Source of the DNA: Burkholderiales bacterium PBB3
Lineage (GTDB): Bacteria > Pseudomonadota > Gammaproteobacteria > Burkholderiales > Burkholderiaceae_C
DNA: 64,000 nucleotides
Direction of reading: 5' to 3'
Assembly: GCA_002256115.1 (NCBI GenBank)
Contig: NKIK01000001.1
Coordinates: forward strand, 302,896-366,895
This document shows positions 29,599 through 53,676 of the stretch, in pieces. The translations under genes and the position numbers were made by a program. A model generated the notes under the pieces. The model searched no databases, was not told the origin of the DNA, and saw nothing but the letters and a program-made list of their open reading frames with translations. Every line of letters starts with the position of its first letter. Position 1 is the first letter of the stretch.

Positions 29599-29655
29599 CT
29601 ATGCATTTAGGAGCTGCTCCCGCACTATCCACGGCCTGAAAGGCCTATTTGGCTC
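29599..29655 (-). repeat. Dispersed border repeat, copy 4
   Basis: Core at 29612-29635, minus orientation, occupying the gap between the cyclase stop codon and the ispF start, and so read in sense in front of ispF. It is inverted relative to copy 5 on the other side of the cyclase gene. Confidence 0.92.
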
Positions 29656-30269: not shown

Positions 30270-30289
30270 TCGCCTTCTGGATTAAGAGT

Positions 30290-30346
30290 CAAATCGGCCA
30301 TACAGGCCGTGGATAGTGCGGGAGCAGCTTCTATTTTGATAGCAAA
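30290..30346 (+). repeat. Dispersed border repeat, copy 5
   Basis: Core at 30306-30329, plus orientation, in the gap between the end of ispD (30387) and the start of the cyclase gene (30269). It shows the right-hand stem CTATTTTGATAG well. Paired in inverted orientation with copy 4. Confidence 0.92.
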
Positions 30347-30386
30347 CGGCTGTGCAAGTTGTGCGGTTGGGAAGCATCACAGCACA

Positions 30387-31166
30387 TTACGGCATGCCAC
30401 GCGACTGCAGCACCGCCTGCGCCAGCGCAAAGTCTTGCGGGTAAGTGACCTTGAAATTTTGCGCGCTGCCCTCCACCAGCAGCGGCTGGCGGCCCACAAA
30501 CTCCAGCGCGCTGGCCTCATCGGTTACCGTATCGCCCGCCGCCCTGAGTGCCGCCTGTAGCTCGCCAATGCGAAACATCTGCGGGGTTTGCGCCAGCCAT
30601 TTGTCGCTGCGGTCCACCGTTTGGGCCACGCGTCCACCGGCTTCGCGCTTCAAGGTGTCAGGCAGCTTCAGGGCCAGCAGGCCACCCACGGCATCGGGCA
30701 GGCAGGCGGCGATCAGGCTCTGGATTTGTTGCGGGGTGATCAGGCAGCGGGCGGCGTCATGCACCATCACCCAATCACCCGGTGCAGCCCCCTGGCCCAG
30801 CAGAGCGCCCAGGCCACTGAGCACGCTCTGCGCGCGGGTTGTGCCACCACAAGCCACCACCGCAAACCGCCTAGGGGCGTTGTCAAAAAAAGTATCGCCT
30901 TCGGACACCACCACCAAGCCACCGGCCAGACCGGCTACGGCCTCAAACGCGGCCAAGGTGTGTTGCACCATGGGCTGGCCCGCTACGACTTGGTACTGCT
31001 TGGGGCTGTCCAGGCCCGCGCGGGAGCCCGAGCCCGCGCAGGGGATCAGCGCCCACACGCGGGGCTCGTTCCCCGGCAACGCGGCGCGGGCTGGGTCACC
31101 ATCGGCGACGGGGGCCAAGACCTTGGCGGAGGGATTCACGGGGGGATTGGTGGGCTGGTGGGTCAT
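30387..31166 (-). CDS. ispD: 2-C-methyl-D-erythritol 4-phosphate cytidylyltransferase
   Basis: 259 residues. The first 35 residues are a Pro/Ala-rich extension; the conserved part begins VWALIPCAGSGSRAGLDSPKQY, the CTP-binding loop with Arg and Lys, then MVHDAARCLITP and the C-terminal DEASALEFVG and NFKVTYPQDFALA. It makes CDP-methylerythritol in the non-mevalonate isoprenoid pathway, two steps before IspF. It is divergent from mfd with about 105 bp between starts. Confidence 0.95.
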   Translation of the reverse strand: MTHQPTNPPVNPSAKVLAPVADGDPARAALPGNEPRVWALIPCAGSGSRAGLDSPKQYQVVAGQPMVQHTLAAFEAVAGLAGGLVVVSEGDTFFDNAPRRFAVVACGGTTRAQSVLSGLGALLGQGAAPGDWVMVHDAARCLITPQQIQSLIAACLPDAVGGLLALKLPDTLKREAGGRVAQTVDRSDKWLAQTPQMFRIGELQAALRAAGDTVTDEASALEFVGRQPLLVEGSAQNFKVTYPQDFALAQAVLQSRGMP

Positions 31167-31271
31167 AGTGCGTGCCCCATTCTAAAATCGAAGCAAATCG
31201 CTCGAAACCACCCCCCTTCTTTTGCACCGGTGCCCCCGCGGGCTGCCTTGCCTCCACCCAAGCACGCTTTC

Positions 31272-34853: not shown

Positions 34854-34898
34854 CTGGGAGCGCGCAAAGGGCCTGAAGGTAATCCTGTGGTGCTCGCT

Positions 34899-34977
34899 GC
34901 AGAGTTTGGGTCAGTGGCCCGCGCCTCATGGTGTCAAACGCCCACAAATCGGCGCGGGCCACTGACCCAAACTCTGC
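34899..34977. repeat. Perfect 27-bp inverted repeat downstream of mfd
   Basis: Arms 34899-34925 and 34951-34977 are exact reverse complements over 27 bp, separated by 25 bases. Neither side has a run of T, so an intrinsic terminator is unlikely in the usual form. It starts 46 bp after the mfd stop. Arms contain TTTGGGTCAGTGGCCCGC. Origin unknown: could be a small mobile palindrome or a structured 3' end that stabilises mfd mRNA. Confidence 0.85.
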
Positions 34978-35113
34978 GGGGGTATCTACAGCATTCAAAC
35001 CGGACAAAGTCGCGTGTTGCTGAATCGCAGGCACAGTGCACCCTACGTAATTCCGCTATTGCATCTTTGAGCGAGGCTACTAAAGTGTGACGGATAGACA
35101 AAAGGGACACTCC

Positions 35114-36313
35114 ATGGAAACTTTGACCATCGCAGCCTCAGTGCACGATTTCAATCCCGTACGCACTGCGATGCAACGCTATGTCGACCAAGACATTCTT
35201 GCCGGAGCGTCATACGCCATTTTGCGAGGCCAGGACATTCTTGATATGCAATGTGTTGGCTGGGCAGACAAGGAAAGCAACACGCATTTGCGCACGGACC
35301 ATATCTTTCGCGCGATGTCCAATACCAAGCTGATTACCTCCATGGCGGTCATGTTGCTGTGGGAAGAGGGAAGAATTCACCTTGATGAACCTATTGGGAA
35401 GTTCATCGCACAACTTGCCGACCTGAAGGTCCTCAAACCCGGCGCAAGCCGCTTGGACGAAACCGAGCCCGCACGCAGCCCCATCACGATCCGTCATTTG
35501 CTAACCCACAGTTCTGGTCTAAGTTACGGTCTTTTGGACCCCGGTAGCTTATTGTTCAACGCCTACAACGAGCGTCGAGTCATAAACCCCCACAAGCCAC
35601 TGATCAGCATGATGGATGCACTCTCCGACTTACCGTTGATGTTTCAACCTGGCGCCTCCTGGGAATATTCGGTGGCAACGGATGTGCTGGGCTATTTGGT
35701 TGAAGTAGTGTCTGGGCAGGATTTGGAGCAGTTTTTTAAGTCACGGATTTTCGATGTATTGGGAATGGAAGATACGGCATTTACCTTGCCGCCTGAAAAG
35801 CACAGTCGGCTTGCAACCTGCTACGCGGGTGCCGACGGGATGGACCCGATGAAACCTGGACTGCGTCCAGTGGATACGGTGCCATGGCGAGGCGCTTATC
35901 TTCAGCCCTTCCCATTGAAGATGGGCGGCGGAGGCTTGGCGACGACCTTGCCCGACATGGTCGCACTAGTACGCAGTCTGGTGCCAGGCGGTAAGTCGGT
36001 ACTAAAACCTGAGACCATCACTGCGATGATGACCAACCAATTGCCCGAAGGCAGAAATATCCAGTTCGCTCGTTTTGGGGAAATTCGGGGTAAAGGCTAT
36101 GGATTGGGTGGCGCCGTGACCCTGAAACCATCGGCGATCGACCCGCGCGCTTCTACCGGTGAGTTTCAGTGGGGAGGCCTAGCGGGAACGCACTGGTGGA
36201 TATCGCCGCAAACCGGCCTGGTTGGTGTGCTGATGGCCCAGCGACAGATGGGCTTCTGGAACCCATTTTCTTTTGAATTTAAACAACTCGCCTATCGTGC
36301 CGCAGGGCACTGA
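35114..36313 (+). CDS. Beta-lactamase-family serine hydrolase
   Basis: 399 residues from the ATG at 35114, which has AAAGGGA six bases upstream; a GTG at 35087 lacks this. Penicillin-binding/class C fold: S-x-x-K at Ser69-Lys72 (MSNTK), HLLTHSSGLSYG, the Tyr motif at Tyr185 (WEYSVATDVLGYLVE), and a GLAGTHWW replacing the KTG strand. No signal peptide, so likely cytoplasmic esterase rather than a beta-lactamase. Its end overlaps the remains of a histidine phosphatase gene. Confidence 0.9.
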   Translation: METLTIAASVHDFNPVRTAMQRYVDQDILAGASYAILRGQDILDMQCVGWADKESNTHLRTDHIFRAMSNTKLITSMAVMLLWEEGRIHLDEPIGKFIAQLADLKVLKPGASRLDETEPARSPITIRHLLTHSSGLSYGLLDPGSLLFNAYNERRVINPHKPLISMMDALSDLPLMFQPGASWEYSVATDVLGYLVEVVSGQDLEQFFKSRIFDVLGMEDTAFTLPPEKHSRLATCYAGADGMDPMKPGLRPVDTVPWRGAYLQPFPLKMGGGGLATTLPDMVALVRSLVPGGKSVLKPETITAMMTNQLPEGRNIQFARFGEIRGKGYGLGGAVTLKPSAIDPRASTGEFQWGGLAGTHWWISPQTGLVGVLMAQRQMGFWNPFSFEFKQLAYRAAGH

Positions 36314-36764
36314 CGTGGCTCTGTGGGTCAGGCGACCCAAGGACGACCCCGCCCGGTCGCCAGAAGGCCAGCAGCGCGCGGAACTATTGGCGGAGACTCT
36401 TGCGTCGGCCAACGTTCAGGCCATCATCACCACGCATTACCGCCGTACGCAAGAGACTGCCGCGCCACTGGCCAAACGCCTCGGGCTCCTGCCTACCGTG
36501 CTGCCCATTCGGCCCGGACCGCAATCGGCCCATATTGCCGAGGTGATCGCGGCAGTGCGCAAGCTGTCGGGTGTTGTCTTGGTGGTCGGCCACAGCAACA
36601 CGGTGGCGGACATCGTTGCCGGCCTTTCCAGCAGCACGCCGGTCCCGCTTTGCGAAACATCGTTTTCAAACCTGTTCGTCAGCACGCAGACCTTACCTAC
36701 GTTGCCCGCGCTTCAGCTCAAGTACGGCAAGCCGGATAGGCCACCCGCGTCGGGCTGCCAATAG
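36300..36764 (+). pseudogene. Truncated histidine phosphatase (SixA/phosphoglycerate mutase-like)
   Basis: The frame encodes LSPEGQ-type QQRAELLAETLASANVQAI, TTHYRRTQETAAPLAKRLGL, VVLVVGHSNTVADIVAGL and SFSNLF, all of a secreted histidine phosphatase. At its N-terminus the catalytic RHAE motif is replaced by WVRRPKDDPARS: the nucleophilic His is gone, and the usual signal peptide is missing because the serine hydrolase gene runs up to the same point. No convincing start or ribosome binding site exists. I read it as a decayed gene; a 163-codon frame starting inside the upstream gene (36273) is possible but would still lack the catalytic His. Confidence 0.7.
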
Positions 36765-36929
36765 AACGGCCTGGCCTTACTGGCTGCAGCCCGGAGCACC
36801 TCGCGTCGAGCCCCGTGTCGCGCGGGACACCGTTTCGTCGGCTGTTTATCGGTCCTGTCGGAAACACCCTGCTGCGCAGCGTCGAGGGCCTTAAGCTGCA
36901 CGCCATCTGACACCGCCAAGGAAGTTACC

Positions 36930-38192
36930 GTGTTTGCATTCCTGACCCACCTATTTTTCATCCTCCGATCGGCCTTCGTCTGGTTTGCTGCCAGTCTGTT
37001 TCTCCTGAATGCGTTGTTCGACCTGCTGTTTCCACAGATACGTGTCAACAATATCGAGCTCATCCCGATCACCATAGGAGCCATCGCGCTGCTGGTGGCT
37101 TTCTCGCATTGGCGCAGGGTGCGCCTGATCGGGCATGTGGTGACCAGCAGTACCCTGGCCAACCGGCACCGCCGCCAGATCGAGATACCGCTGCCGGCAG
37201 ATGTTGGTTTTGCGCTGGTCGAATCGGCCATCCGCGAATTGCCAGGAGCACAGGGGGTCGAGAGTGCGGCTGACAGCCTGCAGGTGCGGGCCAAAGTTCG
37301 GCGCATCGACCCCTACCGCAATCCGATCCTGCAGCGCTCCTCGGCGCTCAGCAACTTGTTCAGCGGCGACAACCAAGTACTGGCCACGGTGACTCCGGGC
37401 GACGAGGTCAGCAGCGTGACCCTGATCTGTGAGCCAGACCGTAGCGCATGGACCGACTGGTTCTTTGTCGACAACGGCACCAACCTCGACAATGCGGAAG
37501 CCCTGACCCGGGCCATTTCCCGTCGGATTTCCGAGATTCGAAAGGAAGAGCGGGCCAATGTGCACCAAACGGTGACGGACAAGGAGCTGACCACGGCCAA
37601 GCTCAACCTGTTGCACGCGCAGGTCGAGCCCCACTTCCTGTACAACACCCTGGCCAGCGCACAAGTCCTGACGCGCACCGATCCCGCACGGGCTGACCAG
37701 ATGCTGGGCAACCTCATCACCTACCTGCGCCACTCGCTGCCCCGCACCGAGGATGCCTTGTCCACCATTGGGGTGGAGCTGGAACGGGCGCAGGCCTATC
37801 TGGACATCATGAAGATTCGCATGGGCGGCAGGCTGCAGTTGCACATCGATGTGGCGGACTATCTCAAGCCCGTGCTGTTCCCCAGCATGATGTTGCAAAC
37901 CCTGGTGGAAAACGCGATCAAGCATGGACTGGAACCCAAGTCAGGGGGCGGCAACATCTGGATCTTGGCACGACCCCATGACAACACAGTCGCCATCACC
38001 GTGGCCGATGACGGCCGCGGATTCAGCACCGAGGGGGCGGGCACCGGAATTGGGCTGCGCAACGTGCGTGAACGACTGCGACTAGCCTATTCAGGAAGTG
38101 CCCATTTCGGCATCGCAGCCAATTTTCCAAATGGCGTGGCCGCCACGATCACCGTTCCGACCAATTTCCAGCAGGGAGTACAGAATGGTTAA
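36930..38192 (+). CDS. LytS/YehU-type sensor histidine kinase
   Basis: 420 residues from a GTG at 36930, supported by AAGGAAG six bases upstream. Two N-terminal membrane helices (about residues 5-33 and 44-62), a 150-residue region of unknown fold, then the His_kinase domain: His235 in VEPHFLYNTLASAQVL, N box LVENAIKHGLEPKSGG, G boxes DDGRGF and GIGLRNVRERL. Same family as LytS, YehU and AlgZ. It overlaps the regulator gene by 8 bp (ATGGTTAA), so the two are co-translated. Confidence 0.92.
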   Translation: MFAFLTHLFFILRSAFVWFAASLFLLNALFDLLFPQIRVNNIELIPITIGAIALLVAFSHWRRVRLIGHVVTSSTLANRHRRQIEIPLPADVGFALVESAIRELPGAQGVESAADSLQVRAKVRRIDPYRNPILQRSSALSNLFSGDNQVLATVTPGDEVSSVTLICEPDRSAWTDWFFVDNGTNLDNAEALTRAISRRISEIRKEERANVHQTVTDKELTTAKLNLLHAQVEPHFLYNTLASAQVLTRTDPARADQMLGNLITYLRHSLPRTEDALSTIGVELERAQAYLDIMKIRMGGRLQLHIDVADYLKPVLFPSMMLQTLVENAIKHGLEPKSGGGNIWILARPHDNTVAITVADDGRGFSTEGAGTGIGLRNVRERLRLAYSGSAHFGIAANFPNGVAATITVPTNFQQGVQNG

Positions 38193-38964
38193 GTGTGTCA
38201 TTGCCGAGGACGAAAGCCTCTTGCGCGAGGCATTGCAGGAGCAGCTCGCCAAAGCGTGGCCCGAATTGCAGATCGTGGCGGCCTGCGACGATGGCGCCAG
38301 CGCCCTGGATGAAATCGTGGCGCACCAGCCCGATGTGGCATTCCTCGATATTCGGATGCCCGGACTCAATGGCATTGAGATTGCCGAGGCCATGGCCACG
38401 GCCAGTCCGGCGACGCAGATCGTCTTTGTCACGGCCTACGACCAGTACGCCATCGATGCGTTCGACAAAGGTGCCATCGACTACCTGCTCAAACCGGTCA
38501 GCTACGACCGCCTGACCAGCACCATCCAGCGCCTCAAGACCCGGGCCACCGCCGGGCGGGCTGGCAGCCAGGACCACACCGCACTGGTGGCACTGTTGGG
38601 GCGGGTGGCCGCTGGGCAGGCCGCGAACCCGCGCAGCGAGCCGCTCGTGTGGTTGACCGCCAGCGTCGGGAATGAAACCCGCCTGATCATGGTGGACGAT
38701 GTGGCCTATTTCAAATCTGACAATAAGTACACCGTGGTCATGACGGCTGCGGGTGAAGCCTTGCTGCGCAAACCGATCCGCGACCTGCTTGATGTGCTCG
38801 ACACCACTCACTTCAAGCAGATTCACCGCTCCACCATCGTCAACCTCAAGGCCGTCGCATCGGTCACCCGCGATGACAACGGCAAGGGCCTTGTCAAGCT
38901 GAAAACCCGACCGGAAACCCTGAGCGTGAGCCAGCCCTACATGCTGCTGTTCAAGAATATGTAG
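38185..38964 (+). CDS. LytTR-type response regulator
   Basis: 259 residues from MVKCVIAEDESL at 38185 with AGGGAG upstream; it overlaps the kinase stop. Receiver with Asp55 in VAFLDIRMPGLNGIE and KPVSYDRL Lys; C-terminal LytTR DNA-binding domain (VDDVAYFKSDNKYTVV, FKQIHRSTIVNLKAVASV). LytTR proteins bind direct repeats upstream of target genes. The obvious candidate target is the membrane-protein gene 7 bp downstream, or the operon itself. Confidence 0.93.
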   Translation: MVKCVIAEDESLLREALQEQLAKAWPELQIVAACDDGASALDEIVAHQPDVAFLDIRMPGLNGIEIAEAMATASPATQIVFVTAYDQYAIDAFDKGAIDYLLKPVSYDRLTSTIQRLKTRATAGRAGSQDHTALVALLGRVAAGQAANPRSEPLVWLTASVGNETRLIMVDDVAYFKSDNKYTVVMTAAGEALLRKPIRDLLDVLDTTHFKQIHRSTIVNLKAVASVTRDDNGKGLVKLKTRPETLSVSQPYMLLFKNM

Positions 38965-38971
38965 GCCCCGT

Positions 38972-40447
38972 ATGGAACCCACGCCCCACGCCCCTGATAG
39001 TCCAATACACCCACAACGCGCAGGCCGATGGTGGCCCACCGCACAGGCCCTGCTCGCCACCTCTGCGGGTGTGGGCATCGACGTTCTGGAGGAACGCGGC
39101 AGCGACGGCCGATGGCGCTACCCGCGCGGACGGCAAAAGTACTATGGATTGGGTGCATTGGTCCTGTTTTTTGCTATTTTTTCTGGCTTCGGCATGGGCC
39201 ACATGGTCTCCGCCATGGGCGCGATGCCCTTCATCGGCGCGGTGATAGCCGGCCTGGTATGGGCCGTTTTTCAATGGTGCCTGGAGCGCCAGATGGTGCT
39301 CAGCATCTCACCCACTGCGCGCTGGCCCCTCAAGTGCTTTGGCTTCACCTGGCGCAGCATGCTGGCGCTGTTGTCAGCACTCACCCTGGTCTACCCATTT
39401 TTTGTGGCGAGTAACCGCGCAGAAATAGATGTGCACACGGCCCATTTGACCCGTGACCGGCTGATCCGCAACGCCGAAACTGCGCCATCGGCTGCCGGAG
39501 TGCCTGCCCTGCAGCAGGCACTGGCCACCGTGCGGGCGGACCGCGCCCAAGTGGAACTGGACCTGCGCGGTGAGCCGCCCCAGTTGGCCCATCTGAAACA
39601 GCTTGCACGGGCATGCTGGAGCCGCCACGCCCAGCTGCAGCGCCAATTGGAAGGCTTGCGTGCCAGCCCCGATGCCGCGCCTGAAGCCGTTGCGACGGCG
39701 CAAAGGCAACAACAGGCGCAGCAGCTACGCTGCACCCAGGCCGACACCGCCGTCGGGCAACGGCTGCAACAGTGGCAGGACGAGAAGAGCGCCGAGAAGA
39801 AACACATCGACCAGCGTCTCTCGGAGGTTCAGGCGCTCACCGACACGGCCTGGGCCAACAGCCGGGCACTGGAGGCACAAACATCCGGCCCCATCAAGGC
39901 GGCTGGGCAATCCGGTTTCGCCGCCGACTTCACCGCGGTGGCCGACTGGCTGCGCCACGACCCGAACAGGCAGATTCAGTTTCTCTGGTGGACCGTGTGG
40001 TTTTTCATCATCGAACTGGTGGCCATCGTCGTGAAATTCATGTCCACCACCGATGTGGACTATCGCTTGCAGGCTGACGAAACCTGGGCCAAGGCCCACG
40101 CTGACAGCGAATTGACCGAAAAACTGCAGACCCTGGCGGGCAACGCACTGGCCAGCCGCATGCAGGCCCAGGGTGTACAGGCCGACCTCGCCGAAGATGC
40201 GGGTGCCACCTGGCAGCTTGTAGCCAGCGAACAGCGCCAGCATGAACAGGCCTTGCAGCGCTGGCAGCGGGACATCAGCCAACCCGTGGCGCTGTTGGAG
40301 GCAGCGTTGGCCAATCTGCAAGCGATTGATCGGCACCAGGCGCGCAGCCGAACCGACCATAACGCCGCACGCACCGATCCCCTGGTGGAGCTGGCCCGTA
40401 GCGAATTGATGCGCGCCTTTGAGCGGACTTTGGCCAGCAAGGCTTGA
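38972..40447 (+). CDS. DUF4407-like membrane protein with coiled coil
   Basis: 491 residues starting 7 bp after the response regulator. Hydrophobic segments near residues 58-80 (GLGALVLFFAIFSGFGMGH), 84-103 (IGAVIAGLVWAVFQWCLERQ), 128-148, and 331-350 (FLWWTVWFFIIELVAIVVKF). Between the third and fourth is about 180 residues of Ala/Gln/Arg-rich coiled coil with few Cys. Layout and the AVFQWCLERQMV segment match DUF4407 proteins, whose function is unknown. Same operon as the LytS/LytR-like pair, so it may be their output or part of the sensing complex. Confidence 0.7.
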   Translation: MEPTPHAPDSPIHPQRAGRWWPTAQALLATSAGVGIDVLEERGSDGRWRYPRGRQKYYGLGALVLFFAIFSGFGMGHMVSAMGAMPFIGAVIAGLVWAVFQWCLERQMVLSISPTARWPLKCFGFTWRSMLALLSALTLVYPFFVASNRAEIDVHTAHLTRDRLIRNAETAPSAAGVPALQQALATVRADRAQVELDLRGEPPQLAHLKQLARACWSRHAQLQRQLEGLRASPDAAPEAVATAQRQQQAQQLRCTQADTAVGQRLQQWQDEKSAEKKHIDQRLSEVQALTDTAWANSRALEAQTSGPIKAAGQSGFAADFTAVADWLRHDPNRQIQFLWWTVWFFIIELVAIVVKFMSTTDVDYRLQADETWAKAHADSELTEKLQTLAGNALASRMQAQGVQADLAEDAGATWQLVASEQRQHEQALQRWQRDISQPVALLEAALANLQAIDRHQARSRTDHNAARTDPLVELARSELMRAFERTLASKA

Positions 40448-40534
40448 ACACGGGTGCAGGCGGATTGAGGCCGGCGAACGCTAAAGGCTACGGCCAAACC
40501 AACAGGAATGTATCCATCGGAAGCATGAACGTCC

Positions 40535-40849
40535 TCAATTGCCAAAGAGTTCAGAATGCGTCCCCGCCCGTACAAAATTGATACGGCCAGAATCCACCTG
40601 GTAAATCAACAGAAAGTCGCCGCCAATGTGGCACTCACGGTGGTCGGCCCACTCGCCCTTTAAGTTGTGGTCCAGCCATTCCGGGCCCAGCGGGGCGTCA
40701 TTGGCGATGAGCAGCAGCATGCCTTGCTTGAGCCGAACCATGTCGTATCGGCCCGAGTGCGACAGGCGTTGCCAATCTTTCTGAAATGCCCGTGGGTAAT
40801 CGGCGACCAGCGGCAACGCCGCGCGCTTACTGGCTGCTGTTTTTTTCAA
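40535..40849 (-). CDS. YafQ-family RNase toxin
   Basis: 104 residues of the RelE/YafQ superfamily, a ribosome-dependent mRNA interferase. The His residues used by YafQ are all present: WLDHNLKGEW, HRECHIGGDFLLIYQ and RAGTHSELFG. It overlaps the antitoxin gene by 23 bp and is translated after it. The toxin looks intact, as does its antitoxin. Confidence 0.9.
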   Translation of the reverse strand: MKKTAASKRAALPLVADYPRAFQKDWQRLSHSGRYDMVRLKQGMLLLIANDAPLGPEWLDHNLKGEWADHRECHIGGDFLLIYQVDSGRINFVRAGTHSELFGN

Positions 40850-41108
40850 GATCAGCGAACATTTCGTCTGCGGAGGCGAAGCGTGCGCTGCGCGCTGCCA
40901 TCATCGCGCGGGACTCTTCCATGGCCGCGCGCGTTTCCGCGTTGGGCACCTTGAGTTCCAGCGGGAATGCTTGATCAATCACCACGCGGCGCAAAAACAA
41001 GCGCACCGCGTCGGACATGGACAGCCCCATGGCGCTCAATGCCGCGTTGGCCTGCTCTTTGATGTCGTCCTCCACCCGAATGTGGAGCATGGATGTTTGT
41101 GCTGGCAT
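40827..41108 (-). CDS. RelB/DinJ-family antitoxin
   Basis: 93 residues. Ribbon-helix-helix N-terminus SMLHIRVEDDIKEQANAALS and GLSMSDAVRLFLRRVVIDQAFPLELKVPN are standard for DinJ; the C-terminal part binds the toxin. It neutralises the YafQ-like toxin encoded just after it and should repress the operon together with the toxin. Confidence 0.92.
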   Translation of the reverse strand: MPAQTSMLHIRVEDDIKEQANAALSAMGLSMSDAVRLFLRRVVIDQAFPLELKVPNAETRAAMEESRAMMAARSARFASADEMFADLEKNSSQ

Positions 41109-41130
41109 GGTGATGTTTCCTGTTCAAGGA

Positions 41131-41160
41131 GCAATTATGTATCTCATTTGAGAATAATAC
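41131..41160. promoter_or_regulatory. Probable DinJ/YafQ operator dyad
   Basis: An inverted repeat TCTCA (41142-41146) and TGAGA (41149-41153) inside AT-rich flanks, about 35 bp before the antitoxin ATG. RelB/DinJ proteins bind such dyads at their own promoter, so autoregulation is likely. Inferred from position. Confidence 0.45.
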
Positions 41161-41182
41161 AAGACTGCAAACACTCACCACC

Positions 41183-42391
41183 CTAGCGCTGCCGCATCAT
41201 CGCGAACAGCACGTCATCCATATCCGGCACCTGTTGCTGGCGCAGCACCGCCTTGTTGGCGCGGGCTTGCTCCTTGAGCCAGGCTTTGAGGCCTTTTTCA
41301 TCTTGCGCGACCTCCAGGTCGGCACGCATCTGGGCCAAATCACCTTGCAAGTCGGTGCGCTCCTCCAGCATGGTGGCCAGCAACCCAGCCTCTTTAAACC
41401 GCACAAAACAGGGGTAGCCAAACTCGTACTCCATACCATTTCGCAAGTGGCGGTTGTCCATTTCTAGCGCCTTGAGCTGCTCGTTCAACAGAACGTTCAT
41501 CGCCTTTAACTTGGCATCAGACAGCGCGCCGACCTTGTTGGCATCAACCTCCTCCGCCTGCAATTGAATGCGTAGCAGCGTGCGCAAATCTTTGCGTTCA
41601 TAGGCGGCGTTCACCTCGCTCATCAGGGTGGTTTTGCGTTTGCGCGCGTCCTCGTCGGGCTCGCGGTCGGGGTGCAGCGCGCTGGCCAGCTGGCGGTATA
41701 CGGTGCGCAAGGCGGTTTGCGCATCCAGTTGAACCTGTTCGGCGGCGGCTTCGGCAGGCGTTGGGCCTTTTTGGGCCTTGCGCTCGGTGCGCTTGGCATC
41801 ACGTTTCTCCGCCTGGGCCAGCAGCTTTTTCTTCTCAAACTCCACAGCTGCACGAATCACCTCTTCCGGTGAGTTGAACTCGCGCCCTTGGGCAAAATCC
41901 GCCCCCACAAACGACTCGGCCAATTCCCGGGCCTGTTCTCGCAGGTCCAAAGCTGCATCGTCGGCGTCTGCATAGCGCGCGCGTATGGCCTCTACCTCGG
42001 CATCTTGCGGGGGTTCCAATTGCTCGCACAAGCCCAGCACCAGGTGGATGGCTTGCTGCTTTTGCTTGGGTGTGAGCCCCGAAGGTTTGCTGGGAGCCTG
42101 AATGCGTTGGTCCAGCAGCACCAACATGCGCTTGCACAAGAGCTCGTTTTCGGTCAACAGTTCATCCATGGCCTGCCGGTGCACACGCCCATGGGTATCC
42201 AAGGCTAGGCGCAGCCTAGCTGCCAGGGTTTGCGCTTCATCAATGCGCGTCATCAAGCCGTTGAAAAGCTTTTGCGCATGGCTGGGCTTATTCATGGTGG
42301 CAACCACCTTGCCCGCTACCACCTCCAGCCGGTCGGGTTGGGGGGCGTATTCGGGGCCTTGGTCGGCAAATAGGTCATCGGTTGAGTTCAT
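41183..42391 (-). CDS. J-domain protein of unknown function
   Basis: 402 residues, mostly helical and charged. Near residues 225-285 is a J-domain-like stretch with the HPD motif: LRTVYRQLASALHPDREPDED...MSEVNAAYERKDLRTLLR. HPD stimulates an Hsp70 ATPase. The N-terminal 220 residues (DEAQTLAARLRLALDTHGRV, ENELLCKRMLVLLDQRI) and C-terminal 100 residues contain coiled coils and match no domain I can name. It lies between two toxin-antitoxin pairs and is divergent from the second one. Confidence 0.75.
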   Translation of the reverse strand: MNSTDDLFADQGPEYAPQPDRLEVVAGKVVATMNKPSHAQKLFNGLMTRIDEAQTLAARLRLALDTHGRVHRQAMDELLTENELLCKRMLVLLDQRIQAPSKPSGLTPKQKQQAIHLVLGLCEQLEPPQDAEVEAIRARYADADDAALDLREQARELAESFVGADFAQGREFNSPEEVIRAAVEFEKKKLLAQAEKRDAKRTERKAQKGPTPAEAAAEQVQLDAQTALRTVYRQLASALHPDREPDEDARKRKTTLMSEVNAAYERKDLRTLLRIQLQAEEVDANKVGALSDAKLKAMNVLLNEQLKALEMDNRHLRNGMEYEFGYPCFVRFKEAGLLATMLEERTDLQGDLAQMRADLEVAQDEKGLKAWLKEQARANKAVLRQQQVPDMDDVLFAMMRQR

Positions 42392-42452
42392 GGCAATACT
42401 TTACCGGATGGGCTAGCGAAGCCCTCGCTGCCACTGTTCAATTGCCATGTGA

Positions 42453-42478
42453 TGCATATAATTGCGCATGTAATTGCA
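42453..42478. promoter_or_regulatory. Imperfect dyad upstream of VapB-like gene
   Basis: A 26-bp imperfect palindrome centred on TTGCGCAT, with TGCAT/TGCA ends, matching its reverse complement at about 18 of 26 positions. It lies 12 bp before the antitoxin ATG, the usual place of an autoregulatory operator in VapBC-type operons. Confidence 0.4.
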
Positions 42479-42490
42479 AGGAGTTTGATC

Positions 42491-42757
42491 ATGACCCAAG
42501 TCACGATTTACCTGGAGGAAGATACCCTGGCTGCCGCCAAAGAGGCCGCTGCCCGCTCCAAGCTTTCGGTGAGCAAGTGGTTCGCCCAGTTTGCTGAGGC
42601 GGAGAAAGCGCGCAACGTCGGCGATTGGGATAGCTTTTGGGCAGATACAGATGCCATGAAAAAGCCCGGGGAAGACGATGCTTGGGACTTCTTGCTTGAC
42701 CCCAAGCAGCGCTATGCGGGTCTGGGACAGGACTTGCCGCGTGAGTCGATGGACTGA
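42491..42757 (+). CDS. VapB/CopG-like antitoxin
   Basis: 88 residues from MTQVTIYLEEDTLAAAKEAA at 42491, preceded by AAGGAG. The N-terminus has a ribbon-helix-helix pattern; the C-terminus (WDSFWADTDAMKKPGEDDAWDFL) is acidic and probably wraps the toxin. It precedes a PIN-domain toxin gene by 17 bp, which defines its role. Confidence 0.82.
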   Translation: MTQVTIYLEEDTLAAAKEAAARSKLSVSKWFAQFAEAEKARNVGDWDSFWADTDAMKKPGEDDAWDFLLDPKQRYAGLGQDLPRESMD

Positions 42758-42774
42758 GACTGGGCGCGCAAGCA

Positions 42775-43179
42775 ATGCCTCACTTCCTTCTAGACACCAA
42801 TATCCTGCTGTACGCATTCAAAGGCGATGGAATGTGCCGTGAGCATATTGCCAGCGCCCCGCCGCAAACGCTGGCACTCAGCAGTGTTACCGTTTTCGAA
42901 ATCGAATTTGGACTGGCCAAATCGACCAAGCCCGAGCCTTTGCGCGAATTTTTGAATGGTTTTCAAAAACGCAGTCGATTGTTGGATTTGGATCAAGCCG
43001 CCGCCACTCAGGCTGGGCAGCTTCGCGCCCACCTTGCGCGGCTAGGCCAACCCATCGGCCCGTATGACTTGCTCATCGCGGGTACGGCTCTGGCAAACGA
43101 CATGACGCTGGTAACCCGCAACACGCGTGAGTTCGACCGCGTACCGGGTTTACGGATTGAAAACTGGTACGACAATTAG
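42775..43179 (+). CDS. vapC: PIN-domain VapC toxin
   Basis: 134 residues. PIN nuclease acidic residues are in LLDTNILLYAF (Asp7), SSVTVFEIEFGLAKS (Glu) and IGPYDLLIAGTALANDMTLVTRNTREF (Asp, Asp), ending in LRIENWYDN as typical VapC. These toxins cut tRNA or rRNA. Partner of the antitoxin above. The next element downstream is border repeat copy 6. Confidence 0.92.
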   Translation: MPHFLLDTNILLYAFKGDGMCREHIASAPPQTLALSSVTVFEIEFGLAKSTKPEPLREFLNGFQKRSRLLDLDQAAATQAGQLRAHLARLGQPIGPYDLLIAGTALANDMTLVTRNTREFDRVPGLRIENWYDN

Positions 43180-43205
43180 CTTTGCCCCACCGCAGTGCGA
43201 TTCAG

Positions 43206-43263
43206 CATCAAATCAGCCTTTCAGGCCGTGGATAGTGCGGGAGCAGCTATCAAAACAATAGTA
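43206..43263 (+). repeat. Dispersed border repeat, copy 6
   Basis: 58 bp, core at 43225-43248, ending 6 bp before the mod ATG. It aligns with copy 7 at 55 of 58 positions, in the same orientation, on the other side of mod-res. Read in the mod frame it gives a false N-terminal extension containing FQAVDSAGAA. Confidence 0.95.
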
Positions 43264-43269
43264 GGACGC

Positions 43270-45336
43270 ATGTCAAAACCCATCTTCACCACCCCCAGCC
43301 CCGCCGCCCATAGCCTGGAAGTGCTGCGCCAGCACTTCCCCCAGGCTATAGAGACCGATGCCCAAGGCTGCATCCGCATCAACGCAGCAGCGCTGCAAAT
43401 CGCCATCGACCCGGCCAACCCGGCGGGGGTACAGGTGGAAGAGGACGGCTTCGAGCTGCGATGGGTGGGCAAGCGAGAGGCCTACCACAGCGCGTTTGTA
43501 CCAGTACAGAAAATATTGGAGCCGCGCCCGGAGCAAAGCAAAAATTGGGACACCACGGGCAACCTGCTCATCAAGGGCGACAACATCGACGCCCTGCGCC
43601 TGCTGCGCCAAAGCTACTTTGGCCATGTCAAGCTCATCTACATCGACCCGCCCTACAACACCCAAAGCGACGCTTTCATTTACCGCGACGACTTTTCAGC
43701 CAAGCAAGGCGAAGTGTTGGAGCAACTGGGCTATACGCGGGACAACATCGACTACATCAAAAACATCTACGGCGCACGCACCCACAGCGGATGGCTCAGT
43801 TTCATGTACCCACGCCTGTTGCTGGCAAAAGACCTATTAGATAAAGACGGTGTCATCTTTATTTCCATCGACGACAACGAGCAGGCGCAGCTCAAGTTGT
43901 TGTGTGATGAGGTGTTTGGGCAAGAAAATTTCATCTCCAACCTGATTTGGGAAAAGGGCCGAAAAAACGATGCCAAATTCTTCTCCAATGGCCACGAATA
44001 CATGCTGGTCTATGCCAAGGCCCAAAGCCACCTGCGTGAAGAAAACACCCTGTGGCGCGAAGAAAAGCCTGGAGCCCGGGACATTTGGGAACACTATCTG
44101 ACGCTGCGCCAAACGCATGGCGACAACAACACGGCCATAGAAACTGGCCTGCAACAGTGGTTTGCCAGCCTGCCGAAGGCACACCCGGCGAAAAAGTGGA
44201 GTCGCTACAAGCGAGTAGATGCCAACGGCCCTTGGCGCGATCGTGACATTTCTTGGCCCGGCGGCGGTGGCCCCCGCTACGACGTATTGCACGAAACAAC
44301 CAAGCAACCTTGCAAGGTGCCGGAGCGTGGCTGGATCTACTCGACCCCAGAAGAAATGCAGCGTCAAATTGACTTGGGACTTGTGGCATTTCGTGACAAC
44401 CACAGCGAGCCACCCTTTCGCAAGGCGCATATTCGCCCCTTGCCACAAGAATTGGATGCGGTGCCCGAAGACGCAGATTCGGATGGCGAGGCGGATGACG
44501 AACTTGCAACCCAAGTGCGCGGCAGCTATTTTTACAAACAATCGCAAGTATCGGTGCGCCACCTACGCGAGTTGCTGGACAAGAACGTATTCAACAACCC
44601 CAAGGACGTAGACGAACTGGCCCGCCTACTGGGCTATGTAAGCCCCGGCGACAAAAGCGCCATTGCGCTGGACTTCTTTGGCGGCAGCGGCACCACCGCC
44701 GAAGCCGTGATGCGCCTAAACGCGGAAGACGGCGGCACCCGCCAGTTCATCCTGGTACAAATCCCGCAGCCGATTGACGCCAAGAAGCAAAAGGAAGTCC
44801 ACAAGTTCGTCATCGAGACGCTGGGCAAACCCGACGCCACGATTTTCGAAATCACCGCCGAGCGCATTCGCCGCGCGGGGGCCAAGATCAATGCCTACAA
44901 GCCCGAAGTAGACACGGGCTTTCGCGTGTTTGAGCTGGTAGACGACCCGGATGCACTCATCCTGCAAAAGCCATTGCAGGAGGCCACCCAGGACGATCTG
45001 GCAGCGCTTCAAATCAGCATTGCTACGCCCCAGCCCGACCAACTTCCCCGCGTTTTGTACAACCTGCTGCTAGCAGAGCAACTGCCGCTGACCACCGTGT
45101 TGCACACCGTCAAGGTCGATCACCTGTACCAAGCCGCCAATGTACTCATGATCGTAAAACCCCTGCCCCTTGCTGAGCTGGCAGACACTTTGCGCGCCCT
45201 GCAAGCCAGCGCCACGCCTGTGGTTTACCTCACGGTGTACGCACCCTGGATTGATGACGACAACTTCATGCTGGGCATCAAAACCCTGGCCGAGTCGCTG
45301 GGCTACTCCGAAGACAAGTTGCGCCTGCGCGGCTAG
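43270..45336 (+). CDS. mod: Type III restriction-modification methyltransferase
   Basis: 688 residues from MSKPIFTTPS at 43270; an upstream start would translate the border repeat. N6-adenine methyltransferase with catalytic DPPYN at residues 126-130 and SAM motif FFGGSGTT at 469-476, so the order is catalytic motif first (beta class), as in type III Mod. The segment between about 230 and 440 should contain the target recognition domain; it includes KKWSRYKRVDANGPWRDRDI. The C-terminus is long and probably binds Res. The restriction subunit gene begins 18 bp after its stop. Confidence 0.95.
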   Translation: MSKPIFTTPSPAAHSLEVLRQHFPQAIETDAQGCIRINAAALQIAIDPANPAGVQVEEDGFELRWVGKREAYHSAFVPVQKILEPRPEQSKNWDTTGNLLIKGDNIDALRLLRQSYFGHVKLIYIDPPYNTQSDAFIYRDDFSAKQGEVLEQLGYTRDNIDYIKNIYGARTHSGWLSFMYPRLLLAKDLLDKDGVIFISIDDNEQAQLKLLCDEVFGQENFISNLIWEKGRKNDAKFFSNGHEYMLVYAKAQSHLREENTLWREEKPGARDIWEHYLTLRQTHGDNNTAIETGLQQWFASLPKAHPAKKWSRYKRVDANGPWRDRDISWPGGGGPRYDVLHETTKQPCKVPERGWIYSTPEEMQRQIDLGLVAFRDNHSEPPFRKAHIRPLPQELDAVPEDADSDGEADDELATQVRGSYFYKQSQVSVRHLRELLDKNVFNNPKDVDELARLLGYVSPGDKSAIALDFFGGSGTTAEAVMRLNAEDGGTRQFILVQIPQPIDAKKQKEVHKFVIETLGKPDATIFEITAERIRRAGAKINAYKPEVDTGFRVFELVDDPDALILQKPLQEATQDDLAALQISIATPQPDQLPRVLYNLLLAEQLPLTTVLHTVKVDHLYQAANVLMIVKPLPLAELADTLRALQASATPVVYLTVYAPWIDDDNFMLGIKTLAESLGYSEDKLRLRG

Positions 45337-45353
45337 AACGAGAGTTGACGCCA

Positions 45354-48347
45354 ATGACCGCCCAATTCCAATACACCACCCTCGCGCACCAAACTGCGGC
45401 GGTGCAGTCGCTGGCCGATGTTTTTAACGACGTGCGTTTTGTGCCCCCCATCAACGTGCAATCCAACCCGACTATGCTGCCGGGTGAGGCGGCAGCGGCG
45501 TTGAAGGAAAACATCAAAGCGATTCGGCTGCGCAACAACGTCACTGCGGGCGATGTGCAAGTGCCCGTGACCACCACGCCCGCGCTGGGGCTGGACGTGC
45601 TGATGGAAACCGGCACCGGCAAAACGTTTACCTTTATAGAGACGATTCACCGCCTGCACCGGGACAAAAAAATCTCTAAATTCATTGTGCTGGTGCCCTC
45701 GAACGCCATTCGCCAAGGCACGCTCAAGAGCTTTCAAAGCACTGCAGCCTTCTTTGCCAAGCAATACGACCAGCACATCAATGTCTACAACTACTCTGCC
45801 AAGACAGTGGCCGGGTTTATTCATGCGGCCAATGCGGGCATTTCGGTGCTGGTGGCTACCTACCAATCGTTTGCGGGCGATGGCAAGGTGATTAACCAGC
45901 GCGGCGTAGAGGCCAACCTGTTTGGCCACGCCAAGAGTTATATGGAGGCGCTAGCGGTGATTCGCCCGGTGCTGATCATTGACGAGCCGCACCGCTTTGA
46001 GGGCAAACAAACGCAGGAGTACCTGGCCAAGTTCAACCCGCTGCTGACGATCCGCTTTGGTGCGACCTTTAAGGCCCAGGACAAGGCGGACAGCGCAGCG
46101 CTAAAGTACAAAAACCTGGTCTACACGCTGGACAGCCTGGAAGCGTTTAGGCAGCGGCTGGTCAAAGGCATTGTGGTGGACACGGTGGGCACCGGTGCCA
46201 CCGCCACCCAAACGCTCACCTACCTCAGCACCCACGGCACCGCCAAAGAGCGCTGCGCCCATGTGCAGTACCACACTGCAACCGGTAACACTGCAACGGT
46301 AGACCTAAAGGCCAAAGACAACCTGGCCGACAAAACGGGGCTGGCGTTCCTGGATGGCCATGTGGTGGAAAACATCACGGCCAAAGAAGTGCTGTTTACC
46401 AATGGCTTTGCACTGCCCTTTGGCGAACCTACGGCCTACGGGGTGCTGGCAGACCAAACGCAGTCGCTAATTGTGGAGTGCGCCGTGGCCAACCACTTTG
46501 AGCGTGAGGAAGACCTGTTCAGGCGGGGCATCAAGAGTTTGAGTCTGTTTTTTATTGATGCTGTGGCGAAGTACATGCCCGCCGGGCAACGGCCCGCCGT
46601 ACTGCGCGATGCGTTTGAGTTCCACTACCGCACCCACCTGACCAAGACACTGGCCAAGGCAGATTTGCACCCACCCTACCGTGCGTACCTGGAGCGCAGT
46701 GCGGCGGATGTTGGCAAGGTGCACAAGGGCTACTTTGCCCGCTCACACAGTGACAAAGGGGAAGAAGAGGCTATCAAACTCATCTTGCAAGAGAAAGAAA
46801 AACTGCTCAGTTTTGAGACGGATTTGCGCTTCATATTCTCCATGTGGGCACTGCAAGAGGGCTGGGACAACCCCAATGTGTTCACCCTGTGCAAGCTGGC
46901 CCCCAGCAATTCTAAAATCACCAAGCTGCAGCAAATTGGCCGTGGCTTGCGTCTGGCGGTGAACCAGCAGCTGGAGCGGGTGCTGACGGATGACCCGGCG
47001 TTTGACGATGTCAACCAGCTCATCGTGGTGGTGCCAGCCAGCGAAGGGGACTTTGTGGGGGCGATTCAAAGTGAAATTGCCGCCCACAGCGTGCGCCTGG
47101 TGTCACGGGTGATCAACCAGGAATCCCTTGCGGTCAGCGGTATCAGCATGAACCCGTTTGTGACCGTAGCGCTGTTTCAGGCGCTGGCGCAGTGCGGTGC
47201 GGGTGCCATTGACATGGCTACCGGCACGCTGACTTTGCAGCCGGAGGCCCCTACGTTCAAGCGTCAACGCGCAGTGATTGAAGGGATTCTGGCAACCGTA
47301 GCGGGGCTAGGCCCTGACAATGCGCGCGCCATGTTGGCTTACTTGGACGCTTACTACGATGGCTATGGGCAGGTAAAAGCCAAGCAAGACAAACCCAAGC
47401 CCAACTTGCACGTCAATCCTACGCAGTTCGCAAAATTCAAAGAACTATGGGAACGACTGAACCAAGACGCCGTGTTGCACTATGAACTGGACACACCTGC
47501 GCTGGTAGACAACATCGTTCGGCGGCTGGGCAGCGACTTCTCTGTGCGCCCACTCACCATTCAGGTAACGCGCACGCAAGATGTACAAAGTTTGCATGGC
47601 GCACAGAGCACCAGTAACAGCTATGAAGTGAAGTCACACACGGTGTTTACTTTGTCAGGTTTTGTACGCGAGCTGGCCAATGCGACCAAGCTGAGCTACC
47701 ACACCGTGGCGCAGTCACTGGCGCGCATGCCCCCTGAGAAGTTTGCACAGATCCGGCATAACGAAGGCCGCGCACTGAGCGCACTGCGCGACCTGATGCT
47801 GAGCTGCGTTTACGAGCTGTTGGTTCACAAAGTGTCTTACGAGCTGCGCCAAACCAAGGTAAAAACGGCGCTGACGGACAACACGGGGGCACTGCTGCAG
47901 TCGCTGAACGTGTCCTCGTGTGGCTCTGAGCAGCACACAATTGCGAATACAGAGGTACGGGTCCGGTCGTTGTATTCCGATGAATTTATGCCGGTAGATA
48001 GTCAGATTGAGCGTGACACAGTAGATGAATCGCATGGTCAACGTATCGCCGTATTCGCCAAGTTACCGAAAGTGGACATTCCCACACCAGCAGGTAAGTA
48101 CAACCCAGACTTTGGCTACGCTGTGCTGCAGGGCGACGATTCAAGAGCCATGTATTTGGTAGTAGAGACCAAGGGCTACGACAACTATGGCGACATTCCG
48201 ACCAACGAACGCTGGAAGATTGACAGCGCCAAGCGCTTCTTCGAGGCGTTGCGCGCGCAGGGTACGCCTGTTGAGTTTCACACCAAACTCAACCGTGAGT
48301 CCCTGGCGCAAATTGTTCATCAAATCAGCCTTTCAGCCCGTGGATAG
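45354..48347 (+). CDS. res: Type III restriction enzyme Res subunit
   Basis: 997 residues from the ATG at 45354 (a TTG at 45345 is possible). Superfamily 2 helicase: Walker A METGTGKT at 84-91, DEPH at 210-213, and motif VI LQQIGRGLRL. The C-terminal nuclease has Pro-Asp 918-919 and Glu-Thr-Lys 938-940, the PD-ExK pair. With Mod it cuts DNA about 25-27 bp from an unmethylated site after translocation. All motifs are intact. The last seven residues (ISLSARG) and stop are encoded by border repeat copy 7, so the native C-terminus may have been replaced. Confidence 0.95.
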   Translation: MTAQFQYTTLAHQTAAVQSLADVFNDVRFVPPINVQSNPTMLPGEAAAALKENIKAIRLRNNVTAGDVQVPVTTTPALGLDVLMETGTGKTFTFIETIHRLHRDKKISKFIVLVPSNAIRQGTLKSFQSTAAFFAKQYDQHINVYNYSAKTVAGFIHAANAGISVLVATYQSFAGDGKVINQRGVEANLFGHAKSYMEALAVIRPVLIIDEPHRFEGKQTQEYLAKFNPLLTIRFGATFKAQDKADSAALKYKNLVYTLDSLEAFRQRLVKGIVVDTVGTGATATQTLTYLSTHGTAKERCAHVQYHTATGNTATVDLKAKDNLADKTGLAFLDGHVVENITAKEVLFTNGFALPFGEPTAYGVLADQTQSLIVECAVANHFEREEDLFRRGIKSLSLFFIDAVAKYMPAGQRPAVLRDAFEFHYRTHLTKTLAKADLHPPYRAYLERSAADVGKVHKGYFARSHSDKGEEEAIKLILQEKEKLLSFETDLRFIFSMWALQEGWDNPNVFTLCKLAPSNSKITKLQQIGRGLRLAVNQQLERVLTDDPAFDDVNQLIVVVPASEGDFVGAIQSEIAAHSVRLVSRVINQESLAVSGISMNPFVTVALFQALAQCGAGAIDMATGTLTLQPEAPTFKRQRAVIEGILATVAGLGPDNARAMLAYLDAYYDGYGQVKAKQDKPKPNLHVNPTQFAKFKELWERLNQDAVLHYELDTPALVDNIVRRLGSDFSVRPLTIQVTRTQDVQSLHGAQSTSNSYEVKSHTVFTLSGFVRELANATKLSYHTVAQSLARMPPEKFAQIRHNEGRALSALRDLMLSCVYELLVHKVSYELRQTKVKTALTDNTGALLQSLNVSSCGSEQHTIANTEVRVRSLYSDEFMPVDSQIERDTVDESHGQRIAVFAKLPKVDIPTPAGKYNPDFGYAVLQGDDSRAMYLVVETKGYDNYGDIPTNERWKIDSAKRFFEALRAQGTPVEFHTKLNRESLAQIVHQISLSARG

Positions 48348-48375
48348 TGCGGGAGCAGCTATCAAAAACATAGTA
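48318..48375 (+). repeat. Dispersed border repeat, copy 7
   Basis: 58 bp, core at 48337-48360, nearly identical to copy 6. Its left part is coding for the end of res and holds the TAG stop (48345-48347). Its right end is 11 bp before the serB ATG. Confidence 0.95.
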
Positions 48376-48386
48376 ACCATTACCCT

Positions 48387-49124
48387 ATGCCAGCCCAAGA
48401 AATTTCTCCAGGCCTTGTTGTACGCAACTTCACGCCCGGCCAAAAGCTGTCCGACTTCAAGCTCATCGCCTTTGACATGGATTCCACGCTGATCAACATC
48501 GAATGCGTGGACGAGATTGCCGACGCGGCGGGGCGCAAGGCGGAAGTAGCGGCCATTACTGAGGCCACGATGCGTGGCGAGATTGCCGATTTCCGGACAA
48601 GCCTGCTCAGCCGTGTGGCGCTCTTACGGGGTGTGACCGTGGCCGATCTGGAGGCGGTGCACACCCAGCGCCTGCAGCTCAACCCCGGCGCGGCAGAGCT
48701 GGTCCAGGCCTGCAAGGCGGCGGGACTCAAGGTCTTGCTGGTGTCGGGCGGATTTACGTTTTTTGCCGATCGTGTCAAAGACCGGCTGGGCATCGATTTT
48801 GCCCGCTCTAACCTGCTGGAAATCGAAAGCGGTCCTAACTGCGGTCAATTGACCGGGGGCCTGGTCACGCAAACTTGGGGCGATATCTGCGACGGTGCCG
48901 AGAAGCGCCGCACGCTGCTGGAGGTGGCCTCGCTGATGGGTATCACGCCTGCGCAGTGCATTGCCATGGGCGATGGCGCGAATGACCTGCCGATGATGGG
49001 GGCGTGTTCTGAAGCTGGGGGCCTTTCAGTGGCCTACCACGCCAAACCCAAAGTGCGGGAGCAGGCCATGGTGTCGATTGAGACCGGAGGCCTAGACCGG
49101 CTGCTGGAGGTTCTTAAGCCGTAA
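48387..49124 (+). CDS. serB: Phosphoserine phosphatase
   Basis: 245 residues of the HAD family. Motif I FDMDSTLINIECVDE, motif II LVSGGFTFFAD, motif III Lys in the KRRTLLE block and motif IV MGDGANDLPMMG. N-terminal ACT region of E. coli SerB is absent; this is the short form, common in Comamonadaceae. It removes phosphate from phosphoserine in the last step of serine synthesis. Its 3' end overlaps the convergent DsbA-like gene by 11 bp. Confidence 0.95.
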   Translation: MPAQEISPGLVVRNFTPGQKLSDFKLIAFDMDSTLINIECVDEIADAAGRKAEVAAITEATMRGEIADFRTSLLSRVALLRGVTVADLEAVHTQRLQLNPGAAELVQACKAAGLKVLLVSGGFTFFADRVKDRLGIDFARSNLLEIESGPNCGQLTGGLVTQTWGDICDGAEKRRTLLEVASLMGITPAQCIAMGDGANDLPMMGACSEAGGLSVAYHAKPKVREQAMVSIETGGLDRLLEVLKP

Positions 49125-49776
49125 CTTCTGCCGCGATCTGTTTCAAAGCATTGGCAAACACTTCAGGCGGCTGGCCGCCTGAAATCAAATGCTTGTCGTT
49201 AATGATGACTGCGGGCACGGAATTGATGCCGCTGCGCAAGTAAAACTGCTCGTGGTCGCGCACATCGTCGGCAAACTCGTCGGTGTCCAAAATGGCCTGG
49301 GCTCGGGCCGTGTCCAACCCCACCTCACCCGCCACACGCACCAATACGGCGTTATCGCTGGGGTTTTCACCATCGGTGAAGTAGGCCTTTAGGTAGGCTT
49401 TTTTCAGAGCGACTTGAGCACCCGCAGGGCCTTCCAGGTGCGCCCAGTGCAGCAGGCGGTGGGCGTTGAAGGTGTTGTAGATGCGCGAGCGCTTGTCCAT
49501 GCTGAAGGTAAAGCCCAGCTCGGCCCCGCGTGCGCGGATGGCTTCGCGGGCACCAGCGGCCTGCTCAGGGGTCGATCCGTACTTTTTGGCCAGGTGTTCG
49601 CCAATGTCTTCGCCCTCTTTCACCATCTGCGGATTCAGCTCAAAGGGCTGAAAAGTCAGCGTGGCATCAATCTGGTCAGAAACCTGGCCCAGAGCTTGCT
49701 CTAAAGAAGCCAGGCCCACGGCGCACCAGGGGCAAGACACATCGGATACAAAATCGATTTTGAGGGTTGTTTTCAT
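49114..49776 (-). CDS. DsbA/FrnE-family oxidoreductase
   Basis: 220 residues from MKTTLKIDFVSDVSCPWC at 49776. The thioredoxin-fold active site is C15-P-W-C18, and the helical insertion (NTFNAHRLLHWAH, LKKAYLKAYFTDGENPSD) with C-terminal GINSVPAVIINDKHLISGGQPPEVF are typical of FrnE-like cytoplasmic thiol oxidoreductases. No signal peptide, unlike periplasmic DsbA. An upstream ATG at 49932 would add a region with no conservation. Confidence 0.9.
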   Translation of the reverse strand: MKTTLKIDFVSDVSCPWCAVGLASLEQALGQVSDQIDATLTFQPFELNPQMVKEGEDIGEHLAKKYGSTPEQAAGAREAIRARGAELGFTFSMDKRSRIYNTFNAHRLLHWAHLEGPAGAQVALKKAYLKAYFTDGENPSDNAVLVRVAGEVGLDTARAQAILDTDEFADDVRDHEQFYLRSGINSVPAVIINDKHLISGGQPPEVFANALKQIAAEVTA

Positions 49777-53580: not shown

Positions 53581-53593
53581 GGCGTAGATTTAA

Positions 53594-53651
53594 GCCAAAT
53601 CGGCCATTCAGGCCGTGGATAGTGCGGGAGCAGCTACTTTTTTAATAGCAA
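53594..53651 (+). repeat. Dispersed border repeat, copy 8
   Basis: Core at 53612-53635, in the convergent gap between the exported protein gene and the SDR gene. The GGCC-N5-GGCC left box (53602-53614) and ATAGCA right end are well kept. Confidence 0.92.
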
Positions 53652-53676
53652 GCCGCGCTATCCGCACCCAGCCAAA

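Follow-up and report, generated by a model that had tools for sequence, protein, structure and literature searches.

A complete type III restriction-modification (R-M) operon was found in the Burkholderiales genome analysed here between two near-identical copies of a dispersed repeat. Judging by named relatives, the host is probably a member of the Comamonadaceae similar to Rhodoferax. The explanation that we prefer, and consider reasonably probable, is that an old R-M operon lies in a hotspot between core genes, and that the repeats on either side of it belong to a dense family whose members recombine locally. The type III operon lies in an insertion hotspot between the core genes mfd and serB and, according to this explanation, has long been placed at serB or close to it in this branch. 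Its flanking repeats belong to a 60-bp intergenic family of roughly 480 copies, which often lie just after stop codons, and the right one is the repeat resident upstream of serB. Their near-identity would most likely have come from local recombination between direct copies that are near each other, whether by gene conversion or by strand slippage. The preliminary description of this DNA had read the arrangement as a defence cassette that is exchanged through the repeats, an interpretation that is partly supported by the present data.

The mod-res operon and its flanking repeats

The window (the whole stretch of 64,000 nucleotides that was analysed) holds the following features in and next to the operon:

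42449-42757, + strand: putative antitoxin gene upstream of vapC, assigned by its position and a weak match to PF19891 below the cut-off
42775-43179, + strand: vapC-like PIN-domain toxin gene (PF01850, 1.1e-16; NCBIfam VapC models below their cut-offs)
43206-43263, + strand: left repeat copy, ending 6 nt before the start codon of mod
43270-45336, + strand: mod, type III DNA methyltransferase, 688 aa (PF01555, 5.4e-30; PADLOC MTase_III, 2.2e-152)
45354-48347, + strand: res, type III restriction endonuclease, 997 aa (PF04851 and PF19778; PADLOC REase_III, 4.2e-127)
48318-48375, + strand: right repeat copy, which overlaps the end of res and provides its stop codon; relatives have the corresponding resident repeat upstream of serB

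A recount confirmed that the two repeats are in direct orientation and identical at 55 of 58 positions, and that exactly mod and res lie between them, so that near-identical direct repeats stand at both ends of a complete mod-res pair. A refinement can be added to this earlier observation: the last 10 codons of res, including the stop codon, lie within the right repeat. Because of this overlap the C-terminal residues of Res after HQI look repeat-derived. The res genes of two relatives, G054 and G067, likewise enter a divergent version of the repeat at their 3' ends, and G067 has a repeat copy at the corresponding spot upstream of mod.

Mod contains an N6/N4 methylase domain (PF01555, 105.4 bits against a cut-off of 26.7), and Res, which starts 17 nt from mod, has helicase and endonuclease domains (PF04851 and PF19778, both over their cut-offs), with NCBIfam PRK15483 at 507 bits, below its cut-off of 564. 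By Pfam and PADLOC, mod-res is a complete type III R-M operon, and it presumably works as phage defence. We take it to be comparable to EcoP15I-like type III systems: the predicted methylase domain of Mod, the predicted helicase and endonuclease domains of Res and the adjacency of the genes would all fit, with nothing notable to set it apart. Phase variation of mod was considered and rejected, as only three short low-scoring tandem repeats were detected in 42400-49200 and none of them is in mod.

A dense family of intergenic repeats

The 21-base core of the repeat occurs 481 times in the genome at up to 2 mismatches, in 245 forward and 236 reverse copies, and the same core in a backwards control gave no match at that threshold. 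At up to 1 mismatch there are 414 copies here as compared to 0-2 in each of 102 other genomes of the genus. A looser family pattern matches 46 of 103 genus genomes, and its control matched none. The consensus, obtained from a profile of the relatives' copies, is ATCAAATAGGCCTCTAGCCCCCGTAGAATATGCGCAAGCAGCTATCAAATTAATAGCAAA; it is 60 bp long with about 42% GC by hand count. The repeat models were built from matches of at least 20 bits outside this genome and gave no match with the reversed sequence. The window has nine copies, which give 36 pairs. Besides the two at mod-res and the two at the cytosine deaminase gene described below, these are:

24379-24438, - strand: repeat copy
29596-29655, - strand: repeat copy
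30287-30350, + strand: repeat copy upstream of mfd; several relatives carry one nearby too
53593-53656, + strand: repeat copy
62514-62577, + strand: repeat copy

Copies are frequently found within 30 nt of a stop codon. A copy is present in 58 of the 233 intergenic gaps of at least 40 nt that were examined in this genome, and among gaps of 40-300 nt it occupies 16/32 convergent, 27/113 tandem and 3/45 divergent ones; these counts rest on gene calls made by a simple script and not by a standard gene finder. The same script places 13 of 80 counted copies inside genes. No clear preference for orientation was seen in tandem gaps (21 copies along the gene direction and 15 opposite to it). A hairpin or RNA element was rejected as a candidate: no Rfam model matched the 64,000-nt window at gathering score, and no clear base-pair covariation was seen in the alignments used, which leave out this genome because many of its own copies were aligned only in part.

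It was also observed that repeats at the same place (window 11689, 13028, 30309 and 48340) have different cores in the relatives, and that the core is nearly uniform here, with 126 copies having the genome's own core and 12 members having other cores in about 825 kb. On this evidence one core has taken over an old family of repeats in this lineage. Takeover by a single core in every species was rejected, since it was seen in no other genome: core identity between positions of one genome (0.607) is close to that at the same position across genomes (0.610).

REP/BIME and ERIC elements are known as short intergenic sequences with hundreds of copies near gene ends, and the repeat described here is likewise present in hundreds of short intergenic copies near gene ends. 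The BRE of Betaproteobacteria is described, in the part of the source consulted, as about 90 bp long, with an average of 69.0% GC in Bordetella and up to 29 copies per genome (PMC3110155). By this described length, GC content and copy number it is set apart from the present repeat of 60 bp, about 42% GC and about 480 copies. Among the titles and abstract openings of the literature matches listed, no description of this repeat or of a hotspot between mfd and serB was found.

Bracketing by direct repeats is common, and similarity of the pair is less so

A sample of about 825 kb contains 66 pairs of consecutive copies less than 8 kb apart, of which 41 are in direct orientation. An ordinary gene in the same window served as control:

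11742-13022, + strand: cytosine deaminase gene (NF005748), bracketed by direct repeats at 11667-11726 and 13006-13065

The locus was fetched from 30 of the 42 genomes with a match, and in 7 of these 30 (this genome and 6 of 29 relatives) copies in the same orientation stand on both sides of the gene, which shows that such brackets persist around a kept gene. Thus direct-repeat bracketing in itself is not unusual and gives no support to the earlier reading as an exchangeable cassette.

The similarity of the mod-res pair is moderately special. Of the 2850 pairs that 76 sampled copies give, with a mean of 42.7/58, none is more alike than this one, which shares the first rank; this agrees with the preliminary description, in which it was more alike than most other copies. 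In the variable arm its value of 34/37 is reached by 5 of 6441 pairs from 114 copies. Among the 41 consecutive direct pairs the mod-res pair is joint most alike (34/37) and the cytosine deaminase pair least alike (15/37), so repeat density alone is no explanation. The other joint-first pair of this genome flanks lactonase, glycosidase and TonB-receptor genes, and high similarity is thus not confined to defence genes.

Direct copies within 8 kb of each other match at 24.24/37 arm positions against 22.0 for distant copies, and none of 2000 permutations gave a value as high. The excess falls off with distance. Inverted neighbours within 8 kb (21.3/37) have no excess over distant copies, and gene direction does not account for the effect among the copies to which a label could be given (61 of 114). 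Five relatives pooled showed the same trend for nearby direct copies (p = 0.006, pairs treated as independent), which came mainly from G067, while G049 and G033 were without it. The signal of homogenisation is modest, about 2 of 37 positions. As nearby direct copies are more alike, inverted ones are not and the effect decays with distance, we infer that local recombination between direct copies is the cause.

It could be argued that in so dense a family the mod-res pair is alike by chance. There are 481 copies, 5 of 6441 pairs are equally alike, and the nine copies of the window alone offer 36 pairs. Nevertheless, the greater likeness of nearby direct copies would not follow from coincidence, and the very pair that is this alike is the one that brackets the operon. 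We consider coincidence improbable.

The hotspot between mfd and serB

The operon and the vapC pair occupy the right part of a long insertion between two core genes:

30588-34853, + strand: mfd, transcription-repair coupling factor, left border of the hotspot (TIGR00580, 975.8 bits)
34854-48386, no strand: 13.5 kb insertion between mfd and serB
48387-49124, + strand: serB, phosphoserine phosphatase, right border of the hotspot (TIGR00338, 203.7 bits, cut-off 144.15)

The insertion codes for a beta-lactamase-family hydrolase, a histidine kinase, a LytTR response regulator and DUF4407 and weakly DnaJ-like proteins, followed by the vapC pair and then by mod-res. Over the 104 loci that hold both core genes (some genomes appear twice), the distance between mfd and serB varies from about 0 to 13.5 kb; it is below 100 nt in 47 and below 1 kb in 75. 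Elsewhere the cargo is variable and includes vapC-like genes. Constant core neighbours with variable contents were thus found at this locus. Ten genus genomes (G058, G059, G001, G029, G033, G032, G007, G043, G049 and G060) have mfd and serB 61-94 nt apart with a single repeat filling the gap and no cargo. This empty one-repeat site agrees with the idea of a removable cassette; it is known only from other species, the genus set of 103 having one genome per species. A repeat lies just upstream of serB in 21 of 29 genus relatives with a fetched serB locus and is absent in 8 (30 loci were fetched of 53 genomes with a serB match, own genome included); these counts cover fetched loci only, and the relatives are non-independent samples. 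Since a repeat upstream of serB is present in relatives whether or not they have cargo, the right repeat of the operon is the counterpart of this resident repeat.

A junction of vapC, repeat and serB without R-M genes, which had been expected if the operon is removable, does exist in G047 and G025, but the vapC genes there are only 31-49% identical to this one. Among the 56 loci with at least 300 nt between mfd and serB, a repeat was found in 14 and none in 42, many of the latter in other genera, and more than one repeat only in this genome, G021 and G025 (some genomes counted twice).

Defence hotspots between conserved core genes are a known concept. The present locus resembles them in its fixed neighbours, mfd and serB, in its varying cargo that includes R-M, toxin-antitoxin and other defence genes, and in that no integrase or recombinase was detected among the hotspot proteins searched, a set that comprises all but a few small ORFs. 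It differs from them in the 60-bp repeat, which many members of the genus have as a resident next to serB and which stands between modules in this genome and in G067. The earlier statement that a dispersed repeat is involved rather than att sites was upheld.

A mobile element with its own enzyme could in principle have produced the pattern, be it a cassette with an integrase or a set of REP elements that a RAYT transposase mobilises. The genome does have a RAYT-like Y1 transposase gene (contig C85, L258:1465-2154) with one repeat copy just downstream, scoring 78.6 bits with NF047646 against a cut-off of 80. This gene, however, is present in 55 of 61 genus genomes, with one match in most, and also in genomes where the repeat pattern is not matched, G004, G009 and G016 among them, for which reason RAYT was rejected as the specific mover of the repeat. 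The lack of clear covariation in the repeat and of any recombinase among the hotspot proteins searched also argues against such an element, and we regard it as very improbable.

Two further features of the hotspot may be recorded. An imperfect inverted repeat with 45-nt arms follows directly after mfd (window 34881-34995). In L120 (G025) and L138 (G067) the 3' ends of vapC-like genes enter the repeat and apparently use a stop codon inside it.

Modules and repeats in G067

In G067 (contig C33, L137:7302-12772 and L138:2-6062), three defence modules with direct repeats between them lie next to serB. Writing R for the repeat, the order is serB-R-[Schlafen/AlbA and Ppl]-R-[YhcG, PDC-S02]-R-[mod-AlbA-res]-R, and all genes and repeats have one direction. 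Beyond the defence modules there are vapC-like genes and an IetS-like subtilase. From serB outward the bracketing pairs are alike at 57, 52 and 46 of 60 positions, and distant copies at 38.1 on average. The only near-identical pair (57/60) surrounds the module nearest serB, and the bracket of mod-res is the least alike of the three, so that near-identical ends are not found around mod-res in that genome. In G014 the direct copies that bracket a mod-Fic-res operon are alike at 41/58. The arrangement of G067 is what either insertion of a module plus repeat at the resident repeat or strong local conversion would give. The 57/60 pair suggests that something more active takes place at the hotspot, and this counts against our preferred explanation.

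In the main alternative to that explanation, a module carrying one repeat recombines with the resident repeat at serB to give repeat-module-repeat, and the reverse reaction removes the module. The empty one-repeat site, the joint first rank of the mod-res pair among the 41 consecutive direct pairs, the greater likeness of nearby direct copies and the G067 array, with its order of modules and its bracketing pairs more alike than distant copies, speak for it. In G191 (L160), moreover, a copy of a 5' fragment of serB, about 80 nt long, lies left of mod-res, beyond the operon, which is the trace that one crossover at serB would produce. Against it, not one excision or exchange through the repeats was observed in the genomes compared; most loci with cargo have no repeat, and only three genomes have more than one; the brackets of mod-res in G067 and of mod-Fic-res in G014 are not near-identical; and an equally alike pair flanks the lactonase, glycosidase and TonB-receptor genes. 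The history of the operon given below also stands against it. Repeat-bounded exchange is possible but, to our judgement, rather unlikely. A broader form of it appears doubtful to us, namely that resident 60-bp repeats are docking points, where defence modules ending in the same repeat would join or leave the interval between mfd and serB by direct-repeat recombination, thus building integrase-free cassette arrays such as that of G067.

The same locus of G191 also has, in the interval from mfd to mod, a short open frame that by eye resembles the end of vapC-like proteins.

History of the operon across relatives

Close relatives of Res lie directly by serB in G054, G212, G412, G281, G191, L049 and L066. 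In G067 serB is 5.5 kb from the operon, and in G140 the operon is near mfd. Neither core gene occurs within the fetched stretches around the operon in G297, G131, G117, G315, G452 and G379. Among 102 other genus genomes a close Res (90-91%) is present in only G067 and G054, and G014 and G099 have one at 34%. In the Res tree this genome, G054, G067, L049, L066 and G212 form one clade (100/100), and all six have the operon at serB or within 5.5 kb of it. As G281/G191 and G412 fall outside this clade, the location at serB arose more than once or was often lost. In four members of other genera (G281, G191, G412 and G212) the operon is adjacent to serB and no repeat was found there, which argues against exchange of a cassette through the repeats.

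Silent sites showed no recent transfer of the kind that an exchangeable cassette would leave. Identity to G054 at four-fold sites is 0.59 for res and 0.58 for serB; to G067 it is 0.62 and 0.47 for two stretches of res and 0.58 for serB. The divergence of res thus equals that of serB, with the reservation that four-fold sites are near saturation (about 0.5-0.6 in most genes compared), so that an old transfer would not show. Recent horizontal transfer had been considered for G054, where Res is 90% and SerB 77% identical, and was rejected, as equal four-fold divergence means that Res is merely more conserved than SerB.

The sole readable loss of the operon does not speak for the repeats either. 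Upstream of serB in G006 (L125) there is an in-frame fusion from the start of mod to the end of res, a collapsed operon, and the loss is thus an internal deletion and not an excision from repeat to repeat.

Other type III mod genes also have a repeat match, in one or the other orientation, within about 20 nt of their start, namely those in L156 (G117), L161 (G099) and L162 (G014) and, with a weak match of 16 bits, that in L154 (G297).

Significance of the locus

Movement of chromosomal defence genes in the absence of an integrase is an open question, for which this locus is a testable case. It offers a core-gene hotspot with a resident repeat in an empty, a one-operon and a three-module state. 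Should exchange be driven by the repeats, it could take place in the same way at hundreds of sites in these genomes. Otherwise the locus is a clear warning: brackets of dispersed repeats are to be expected, and a bracket alone is no proof of a cassette.

A last observation concerns the right part of the window. For the gene at 62574-63659, a search of 60 other genus genomes at E 1e-50 gave no match, and a second, partial copy of it, 87% identical, is present in its own genome on contig C84.
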